64,000 nt of DNA, taken from positions 26,352 through 90,351 of the forward strand of contig JABGRN010000005.1 in assembly GCA_018648265.1 (NCBI GenBank). Direction: 5' to 3'. Both the position numbers and the translations under genes were made by a program. The stretch is from Prolixibacteraceae bacterium. Lineage in GTDB: Bacteria > Bacteroidota > Bacteroidia > Bacteroidales > Prolixibacteraceae. Of this stretch, positions 15,532-18,244 are shown one piece after another; position 1 is the first letter of the stretch; the number at the start of each line of letters is the position of its first letter. A model generated the notes under the pieces. It saw only the letters and a program-made list of their open reading frames with translations, did no database searches and had not been told where the DNA came from.

Positions 15532-17154
15532 TTATGCTTCTGCAGGAACTAAATCTTTATTCTTTTTTGTAGGAGGAGTAAAAATTCCAATTACACCTTT
15601 TAATCCAACACTCATTGCAATGTTGAAGAAAAATGCAAGAAAAGAAATTAGAAGCAAGGCTCCACAAATTGCTGCTAAAATCATGTACAGGTTATATTCC
15701 CCGTCAAAATAAATAGTACGGCGTAACATTCCTTTTAATCCGGCCATTCCCATAAATGCCCCCATTCCGATTCCTCCAACGAGATGAGTCCAAAAGTGAA
15801 AATTGGTCAACTTGTTACTGTACAATTTTGCCCCGTTTGTAAGAATTGGGAACAGAAAGTAAATAGCAGAATAAAGTGTCATCGATAAACCAACCAATAT
15901 TGCAACATGAACGTGTGGCCCGATAATCCATTGAGTATTGTGTAGAATTCGGTTTAATCCAATATCGGCTTGCATAATTCCGGCAGGTACTGCCAATGCA
16001 AAACCAAGTAATCCACCCAATAAAAATTTAAGGGGAGCAGTCATTTTAAGTGGCCGTGCACTCCAAAGTGTAGCCAAAACAATAAAGAATGCAAGTCCTT
16101 GCGTTATCAGCTCAAAAGCAGTCACCAATTCACCTGAAACAATTTTTAAAATTGCTGGCTGTGCCTGGTCAGAAAGTAGGTGGTGTGACCAAACTGTCCA
16201 TGAAACTATCAATTCAACTAATAATGCAGCCCTTGCAATATTTTGCATAAACAGTTTTTTCCCAGTAATTAAAGTAGCCAGTAAATACCATGTTCCGGCA
16301 ACAAATATTAAAACAAGTCCGTCAGCAATTAAATCGAGTCCCCACCAAAACCAGTTTTTATAAAGTAAAGCATCCACGGCAGAATGTTCCAGACTGTGCC
16401 CGAAAATTGCGGCAACCATGTAAACTAAAATTAAAACTCCGGTAAATAAAATAATCCCTGCATTTAAAGCAACATCAACCGTTCCGCGTGCTATTGCTGC
16501 AACTGGTAACGAAACAAGGTGTTTCTTCTCTTTTTTTGCGAAAATATTATAAAATCCATCTATTCCCAGGGCAGATTTTATAAGTTTTTTCGAAGGTTGT
16601 TTGTCCCAACCTTCGGGAGTGTACATTATTGTTTTAAAAATATTGATTACAAAAAATACAGTCCCAACCATTACAAGTGCAATCCCGGTAATAAACACAG
16701 CTCCGCCAATTGGACTAAATTGGCTGAAGTCGGCAGGCAGTGGCCAGTATAAAGTGTAAAGTGGTGCATAATGAGAAACAAATCCTGCCGCCCAAAAAAC
16801 AAAGGTTCCGATGGCAATTAAAAGGAAGGTCCAGTTGGCAAGTTTAATACTCCAAATTGGCTTTTTCATTAAAAATGGTACCAGGAACAAAAATGCCCCA
16901 AATACAATTAAATAGGTCGATCCGAAAATCCCTACCAGCGGGTGGGCGGTTAAAATAGCAAAATACTGATCTGCTCCAATTGAGGCAATTACCTGAACCT
17001 GGTAAATCCGCATTATCATTCCTTCAATGACCACAAATCCGTAATAAACCAATCCCATAACCACAAAACGGAGTGTGATTTTTTGCATTTGTGTGAGGCT
17101 GTCAGACTTAAATAATTTCTGTTCGCCCGATATTAATGTTTGAATAAAACTCAT
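15532..17154 (-). CDS. Heme-copper oxidoreductase subunit I, non-canonical (nitric oxide reductase-like)
   Basis: This 540-residue integral membrane protein has about 12-14 TM helices and the heme-copper fold. His71 and His416 fit the low-spin heme ligands, His414 the high-spin heme ligand (GPHVHVAIL), and His324-His325 two of the three metal-B ligands (WSHHLLSD). The helix VI motif, GHPEVY in oxidases or HLWVE in cNOR, reads DLIAD here. Asp274 replaces the first CuB/FeB His and Asp278 sits where cNOR has its FeB Glu. The Tyr of the His-Tyr crosslink is absent. This argues against oxygen reduction by the usual mechanism and for an NO reductase-like enzyme. It is co-transcribed with a CuA-less subunit II and an Rrf2 regulator. 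Alternatives are an atypical oxidase or an NO-detoxifying branch of unknown specificity. Confidence 0.85.
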   Translation of the reverse strand: MSFIQTLISGEQKLFKSDSLTQMQKITLRFVVMGLVYYGFVVIEGMIMRIYQVQVIASIGADQYFAILTAHPLVGIFGSTYLIVFGAFLFLVPFLMKKPIWSIKLANWTFLLIAIGTFVFWAAGFVSHYAPLYTLYWPLPADFSQFSPIGGAVFITGIALVMVGTVFFVINIFKTIMYTPEGWDKQPSKKLIKSALGIDGFYNIFAKKEKKHLVSLPVAAIARGTVDVALNAGIILFTGVLILVYMVAAIFGHSLEHSAVDALLYKNWFWWGLDLIADGLVLIFVAGTWYLLATLITGKKLFMQNIARAALLVELIVSWTVWSHHLLSDQAQPAILKIVSGELVTAFELITQGLAFFIVLATLWSARPLKMTAPLKFLLGGLLGFALAVPAGIMQADIGLNRILHNTQWIIGPHVHVAILVGLSMTLYSAIYFLFPILTNGAKLYSNKLTNFHFWTHLVGGIGMGAFMGMAGLKGMLRRTIYFDGEYNLYMILAAICGALLLISFLAFFFNIAMSVGLKGVIGIFTPPTKKNKDLVPAEA

Positions 17155-17183: not shown

Positions 17184-17738
17184 TTATAAACTCTCAACAA
17201 CTACTACCACATCTTTTTCAATCATAGCGATACCTTTCGGTCCCGAGTACTCGGTTGAACGGATACTGTAAACCCCCGGTTTGGTAAACTTCCAGAGAAT
17301 ATCGTTTTTGTGCCCAGGTACGACCTGCATTTGCATAACCATTGAATTGTCTTTTCTGAACAAGCCAAACCCATAAGTTAAATCGTTAGACGTAACGCTA
17401 AATTTTACGATTTCCCCAACTTCCATTTTTAACTTCTCTGATGGCAATTTGAATTCGTGGTTTTCAACTCCAATTTCAAAAGTGCGATCGGCAGTAATTG
17501 TTTTCATCTTTACATCAATAGGAGTCCACGGAATTGTGTTGTACGTAATAATGTGAAGGGAAACCCCCAGCACAGTTAGAAAGATTACAAAAGCGTAAAA
17601 CACACCCGGCTTTACTTTAGTACTTTTCCCTTTTGCAGTAACTTTTACCCCAAACCAAATCATCAATAAAATGATTACCGAGCAGTAAAAAGTGTACGCA
17701 AGTGTTTGTCCGGTTAGAACAATCGACGAATCAACCAT
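17184..17738 (-). CDS. Cytochrome oxidase subunit II-like cupredoxin lacking CuA ligands
   Basis: This 184-residue protein has two TM helices (about 8-30 and 45-66) followed by a periplasmic cupredoxin domain (about 75-184), as in oxidase subunit II. The CuA site is gone. The first His is Tyr122 (SNDLTYGFG), the two Cys are Ser161 and Ser165 (STEYSG), and the second His is Gly169. Only Glu163 and Met172 remain, and the sole Cys in the protein is in TM1. It therefore cannot carry CuA. The complex should take electrons another way, for example from quinol as quinol oxidases do, or through an unidentified cytochrome. It lies 29 bases upstream of the subunit I gene on the same strand and is preceded by an operator-like site at 17770-17795. 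Confidence 0.85.
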   Translation of the reverse strand: MVDSSIVLTGQTLAYTFYCSVIILLMIWFGVKVTAKGKSTKVKPGVFYAFVIFLTVLGVSLHIITYNTIPWTPIDVKMKTITADRTFEIGVENHEFKLPSEKLKMEVGEIVKFSVTSNDLTYGFGLFRKDNSMVMQMQVVPGHKNDILWKFTKPGVYSIRSTEYSGPKGIAMIEKDVVVVVESL

Positions 17739-17806: not shown

Positions 17807-18217
17807 TTACAATTTCAACCCTGCATTTTGTATATCTTTTAACGAAGTTTTTGTCAACGTTTCAATAACTTTTCTTTTAGTTTCCTCCCAAATGTTGTGC
17901 ATGGGGCAAGCGTGATCGAAAGCACACGAATCATAACCTAAAATACATCCATCGATTGAATCCAGCCCGTCGATGGCAACCACAATTTCGATTAGAAATA
18001 TTTTCGAAATATCGCGTGCAAAAGCAAAACCACCCTGCCGCCCCTGAATACTTTTTATAAAACCGTATTTTGATAAATCGGTAAGCAAACGCCTTAAATA
18101 TCTTTCGGGCACATCAATTTCTTTATGTAGTTGCTGAGCCGAATACAATTCTTTTTCGTTTTTGGCCATTTGACCTAAAACTCGAAATGCGTACTTTGAT
18201 GTTTTACTTAGATTCAT
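17807..18217 (-). CDS. Rrf2-family transcriptional regulator, probable Fe-S NO/redox sensor
   Basis: This 136-residue winged-helix regulator has the Rrf2 signature: SKTSKYAFRVLGQMAK at the N-terminus, recognition-helix region VPERYLRRLLTDLSKYGFIKS, and wing GRQGGFAFA. A C-terminal Cys cluster, Cys91, Cys98 and Cys104 with His107, matches the cluster-ligand arrangement of IscR (three Cys and a His) and resembles NsrR, so a [2Fe-2S] or [4Fe-4S] cofactor is likely. It is divergent from the 18398 gene and lies 68 bases upstream of the heme-copper subunit genes. Its own start codon is directly preceded by the operator-like site at 18219-18244. This supports autoregulation and control of the downstream oxidoreductase, probably in response to NO. 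The ligand assignment is inference. Confidence 0.9.
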   Translation of the reverse strand: MNLSKTSKYAFRVLGQMAKNEKELYSAQQLHKEIDVPERYLRRLLTDLSKYGFIKSIQGRQGGFAFARDISKIFLIEIVVAIDGLDSIDGCILGYDSCAFDHACPMHNIWEETKRKVIETLTKTSLKDIQNAGLKL

Positions 18218-18218
18218 T

Positions 18219-18244
18219 AAATGCCACTTGCATGTAGTATTTTA
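18219..18244 (-). promoter_or_regulatory. Operator-like site directly upstream of the Rrf2 gene
   Basis: Half-sites AAATGCCACT and GTAGTATTTTA have the same spacing as at 17770-17795. The site begins one base upstream of the Rrf2 start codon, so a bound protein would also cover the ribosome-binding region. This supports negative autoregulation. Confidence 0.75.

Follow-up and report, generated by a model that had tools for sequence, protein, structure and literature searches.

Among the proposed heme-copper NO reductases (NORs), gNOR is said to have been put forward for Sulfurimonas, Sulfurovum, and Persephonella by Hemp and Gennis in 2008 and by Sievert in 2008, and the nNOR and sNOR families reportedly go back to Murali and colleagues (2024, in PNAS). 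The bo3 and aa3 quinol oxidases have an A-type subunit I with a complete His3-Tyr active site. Only cNOR, qNOR, bNOR, and eNOR are listed as biochemically characterized NORs, with nNOR and sNOR described as proposed NORs related to the B-type oxygen reductases (PMC11388526). In NORs, Glu, Gln, Asp, or Asn replaces the oxidase tyrosine (PMC3475470), and the passage of that paper citing Hemp and Gennis (2008) and Sievert (2008) adds that in some NOR types a metal-B histidine is replaced by Asp. gNOR carries Asp at the active-site Tyr position, has a cupredoxin second subunit, and is listed with "no proton channel", and in sNOR this Tyr is replaced by Asn (PMC8756737, Table A4). Helix VI of qNOR follows the spacing W-x3-H-x3-E (PMC10256718).

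The DNA analyzed here, hereafter the window, comprises 64,000 nucleotides from a Prolixibacteraceae bacterium (assembly GCA_018648265.1, contig JABGRN010000005.1, positions 26,352 to 90,351) and encodes a heme-copper enzyme together with a second subunit and a regulator:

15532..17154, minus strand: catalytic subunit I of the heme-copper superfamily, 540 aa (COX1 Pfam match)
16942..16944, minus strand: codon of His71, which together with His416 ligates the low-spin heme (conservation, whole-length alignment)
16333..16335, minus strand: codon of Asp274, corresponding to ba3 His233, the first metal-B His (HMM alignment, spacing, ungapped scan; 80/80)
16321..16323, minus strand: codon of Asp278, at the position of the oxidase Tyr and of qNOR Glu490 (alignments, ungapped scan, qNOR spacing from PMC10256718)
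16180..16185, minus strand: codons of His324-His325, the metal-B His pair that is left (conservation, spacing to D274)
15907..15915, minus strand: codons of His414-Val-His416, with His414 as the proximal high-spin heme ligand and His416 as a low-spin heme ligand (conservation, ba3 HMM alignment)
17184..17738, minus strand: subunit II (184 aa), with two TM helices at the N-terminus followed by a CuA-free cupredoxin domain (CoxB E=7.5e-8)
17807..18217, minus strand: Rrf2-family regulator, 136 aa, with the Fe-S-type ligands Cys91, Cys98, Cys104, and His107 (PF02082 E=4e-28)
18218..18242, minus strand: imperfect inverted repeat AAATACTAC-N6-GTGGCATTT, candidate Rrf2 operator directly upstream of the regulator start

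A GTDB-scale scan covering about 85,000 species yielded 410 loci, 80 of which were kept for analysis. Subunit I matches COX1 (PF00115, E=1.9e-53, residues 25-499), and its helix VI, NWFWWGLDLIADGLVLIF, contains D274 and D278. The first-pass annotation had placed one aspartate at the first metal-B position and the other at the Tyr/Glu position, with the remaining ligands intact; both statements hold in all 80 aligned sequences, window included, where D274, D278, H71, H324, H325, H405, H414, H416, W270, and E348 are each conserved 80/80. The heme-copper fold and the ligands of both hemes are thus present, and of the three metal-B histidines typical of the superfamily the first is an aspartate throughout. 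Chloroflexota relatives at 43% identity (helix VI GLDMVADG) keep both aspartates and the rest of the active site, and the invariance of D274 and D278 across species excludes a sequencing error or chance. Whatever the register, helix VI holds no histidine: residues 258-323 of subunit I are His-free, which leaves no substitute metal-B histidine there, and the nearest upstream ones, H253 and H257, are not conserved. A cross-linking tyrosine is likewise missing from residues 270-289 of the window protein and from the cross-link position in 80/80 sequences, and the ba3 K-path tyrosines Y244 and Y248 correspond to V285 and W289.

The register of D274, as judged from alignments and spacing, is well supported rather than proven. 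In ungapped scans, D274 fell on the metal-B His of the A-type, B-type, and qNOR references, in each case as the best of 45 positions, and against the C-type reference the best position was off by one; for the Chloroflexota protein, the qNOR and C references selected the corresponding Asp, and the A and B references the residue after it. D274 lies 50 residues from the His-His pair; the corresponding distance is 49 in the A and B references, 50 in C, and 51 in qNOR. When the protein is aligned by HMM to ba3 structures, FWWGLDLIAD falls opposite FWWTGHPIxY with no gap. Full-length comparisons by MAFFT and hhalign opened a gap within helix VI, and the register therefore falls short of proof; the absence of a helix VI histidine is independent of it. 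D278 was ruled out as the metal-B ligand position by its spacing (46 to the His-His pair versus 49-51) and by the ungapped scan. Further along, in residues 405-416 (15907-15942; HNTQWIIGPHVH), His405 and His414 lie 9 apart versus 8 in the measurable A, B, and C references, and the extra residue before the heme ligand also occurs in the Chloroflexota clade. An AF2 model of subunit I gave TM scores of about 0.73-0.75 to cytochrome oxidases, with low confidence in the active-site region and pLDDT below 50 at 323-331 and 396-411.

Subunit II has the ba3 CuA domains as its closest solved relatives (AF2 model, mean pLDDT 87). In place of the CuA ligand set (H, CxxxC, H, M), the window protein has Tyr122, Ser161, Ser165, and Gly169, with Met172 kept; the two cysteines are replaced by Ser,Ser in 78/78 subunit II sequences, and Met172 is mostly retained. 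The loss of CuA makes cytochrome c an unlikely donor. In the Chloroflexota sister clade, an NDH-2-like flavoprotein, whose C-terminal domain is of the NDH2 type, is encoded upstream; this reading covers L134/L132 and L145, where it is clear, and at L144 the position is overlapped by an antisense ORF. Taken together, CuA loss and this neighbor make quinol the likely electron donor, the neighbor itself indicating nearby quinone reduction and not quinol use by the enzyme. The same clade carries a 440-460 aa membrane protein after subunit I (L134 4825-6204, L145 4102-5421), of which the L132 copy had no Pfam or NCBIfam match.

The Rrf2 gene heads the operon and adjoins the subunit pair, before subunit II, in 51/78 loci. 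Its presence had been taken in the first-pass annotation as support for NO reduction. The regulator does have the ligands of a Fe-S Rrf2 protein (Cys91, Cys98, Cys104, and His107, conserved among relatives), but the support is weak, as its score with the NsrR model is 43 bits (cut-off 182); the Cys/His set indicates a Fe-S Rrf2 protein and not NsrR in particular. About a dozen relatives carry the palindrome ATAATACCTNNAGGTATNAT upstream of the regulator start at a constant distance, in perfect form in L046; the imperfect repeat of the window, taken alone, is no better than chance, and 18218..18242 is a possible Rrf2 operator. Other copies of the pair are linked to CRP-type regulators. At the Ignavibacteria-type loci L101, L108, L090, and L069, the place of Rrf2 ahead of the pair is taken by varying combinations of three proteins: a DUF6448 protein, one of 99 aa that matches no Pfam family, and a membrane protein of 154 aa that looks like part of a COX1. 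At L057, a truncated-hemoglobin-type (bacterial globin) gene (PF01152, E=1.5e-17) lies upstream of subunit II on the opposite strand. In a Bacteroidales subgroup (L049, L052, L056, L063, L082, L086), subunit I is recurrently followed by small membrane proteins of clusters c10 and c15 (YeeE/YedE-like by eye) and by a rhodanese-like protein (c26).

In a maximum-likelihood tree of 31 proteins, A, B, C, and qNOR references included, the proteins with both aspartates (D-D proteins) formed a single clade (support 100/99) apart from all of these; the deeper branching order is uncertain because the tree program flagged long branches. Profile comparison by hhalign ranked the B-type first (4e-18) and the A-type second (7e-11), with an internal-repeat match only to the C-type and no similarity to qNOR (E=0.1), and the PDB matches of subunit I included no NOR chain. 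Tree and profiles therefore agree with the earlier view that the active site is neither of A/B/C type nor that of cNOR/qNOR, and by sequence the D-D proteins are a separate deep clade nearest to the B-type (ba3). Membership among the A/B/C oxygen reductases was rejected on Asp278 at the A/B Tyr position and on the tree, membership in cNOR/qNOR on DxxxD instead of HxxxE, the profiles, and the tree, and membership in sNOR on Asp278 versus the sNOR Asn (PMC8756737, Table A4). A plasmid tblastn search for gNOR/nNOR-type sequences returned only oxidases (23-32% identity), and viral contigs gave no match.

The gene is present in 12/61 close-relative genomes (two with fragments only) and in 11/395 genomes of the phylum; carriers are mostly Bacteroidales, Prolixibacteraceae, and Ignavibacteria MAGs, and the subunit pair is intact in 78/80 loci. 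Copies about 77-81% identical to that of the window occur in MAGs titled Anaerolineae, Patescibacteria, Acidobacteriota, and Spirochaetes (L075, L091, L107, L122), through either horizontal transfer or binning error. The source genome has separate A-type and C-type oxidases and NrfA (E=7e-178), and neither NosZ nor NirK was found in it. A denitrification operon was not seen at the locus; NosZ occurs in 9/33 carriers searched, among which two pairs appear to be one genome each, NirK in 2/25, and NrfA fell below the threshold used in about half of the carriers tested. In four genomes (G043, G468, G660, G867), the D-D enzyme is the sole COX1-family protein found. In the neighborhood survey, most loci showed no neighboring nir, nos, or norDQ genes, and gene context thus leaves the substrate unfixed.

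We propose, with a probability of roughly two in three (0.68), that the D-D enzyme is a quinol-dependent NO reductase catalyzing 2 NO + QH2 -> N2O + H2O + Q. This reading is favored by the absence of the tyrosine in all 80 proteins, set beside the published NOR marks (Tyr to Glu/Gln/Asp/Asn, and metal-B His to Asp; PMC3475470), by the invariance of both aspartates along with all heme ligands, and by the loss of CuA in 78/78 partners with an NDH-2-like flavoprotein in one clade. It also draws on the source genome, which has NrfA without NosZ or NirK and other oxidases for O2, on the four genomes with no other COX1-family protein, and on linked Fe-S Rrf2 or CRP-type regulators and the globin gene beside one copy. 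The carriers without NrfA and the loci without nir, nos, or norDQ speak against it. The ligand set, CuA loss, conservation, operon, and separate clade are read from the sequences, and from them we infer substrate, metal, quinol site, and regulation. Quinol would reduce the low-spin heme (His71/His416) directly, as suggested by a subunit II that kept the cupredoxin fold and lost CuA. Electrons would then pass to the high-spin heme (His414), opposite a non-heme metal on His324, His325, and Asp274, and two NO would be coupled to N2O at this His2Asp-ligated metal, with protons handled by Asp278, which stands where oxidases have Tyr and NORs have Glu, and possibly by Glu348. In the source organism, the enzyme would most likely remove NO that NrfA yields as a by-product of nitrite ammonification or that comes from outside, probably under control of the Fe-S Rrf2 regulator, and N2O would be released, since NosZ was not found.

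A high-affinity quinol oxidase, reducing O2 at an unusual active site for oxygen scavenging in anaerobes, would account for the B-type and then A-type oxygen reductases being the closest profiles, for a modeled fold resembling A-type oxidases, and for genomes with no other COX1-family protein; moreover, an oxidase function has been argued for sNOR, which is likewise a proposed NOR (PMC6967387). We nevertheless consider it improbable, as the cross-link tyrosine, the distinguishing oxidase mark according to PMC3475470, is present in no member, metal B is one histidine short, and A- and C-type oxidases are already present in the source genome. Turnover of another small substrate (nitrite, hydroxylamine, or a sulfur species), or a role as redox sensor, involving neither NO nor O2, appears slightly less probable again: the active site is unlike that of every solved member, most copies have no adjacent nitrogen-oxide genes, and few carriers have NosZ, yet published precedent ties both Tyr-to-Asp and His-to-Asp to NORs (PMC8756737, PMC3475470), and complete heme ligands with a conserved membrane core favor a turnover enzyme. 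That the protein is a degenerate or non-catalytic homolog, its losses of a metal ligand, Tyr, and CuA reflecting decay, is very hard to reconcile with ligands and core near-invariant over many species, two aspartates kept at 43% identity, and the intact subunit pairs.

If the D-D enzymes reduce NO, they would add an N2O-making step to many Bacteroidota of sediments and groundwater that, going by their genomes, seem to have cytochrome oxidases only. The site would also show, as a natural experiment, what metal B requires, combining His2Asp ligation with neither Tyr nor Glu, and with its partner lacking CuA the enzyme is a further B-type-like case in which quinol use is likely.

The first-pass annotation had pointed to proposed NOR families with altered metal-B ligands, and such families are indeed described (PMC3475470; PMC8756737, Table A4). 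Because these sources report the His-to-Asp exchange and the gNOR Asp, respectively, the D-D site is a published signature and not categorically new, although apparently no enzyme carrying it has been assayed to date, going by the characterized types in PMC11388526. The D-D proteins probably belong to gNOR or to one of the other families in Murali 2024. It is possible, if rather unlikely, that the Bacteroidota/Ignavibacteria/Chloroflexota clade is instead a family distinct from gNOR and nNOR, an NO reductase with a His2Asp metal B and a CuA-free, quinol-fed subunit II serving N2O-producing NO respiration or detoxification in anaerobes and going under the annotation "cytochrome c oxidase". Compared by description only, gNOR shares Asp278 (PMC8756737, Table A4), Asp274, as far as the Sievert 2008 citation in PMC3475470 conveys it, and a cupredoxin second subunit, and V285/W289 fit its "no proton channel"; it differs in phyla and may differ in CuA, which the window enzyme lacks. 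nNOR and sNOR, likewise compared by description, share the kinship to B-type oxygen reductases, sNOR differing in Asn versus Asp. Thermus ba3, of the B-type, gives the best profile match for both subunits and shares the HNTxW motif ahead of the heme ligands, but the D-D enzyme departs from it in His233 to Asp, Tyr237 to Asp, CuA loss, Y244/Y248 to V285/W289, and one more residue before H414. With qNOR and cNOR it shares the helix VI pattern W-x3-[H/D]-x3-[E/D]-G and, as in qNOR, a presumed quinol donor, whereas profiles, clade, and second domain differ. The bo3/aa3 quinol oxidases resemble it in their CuA-less cupredoxin subunit II and in taking electrons from quinol, as the D-D enzyme likely does, and differ in their A-type subunit I with an intact His3-Tyr site.
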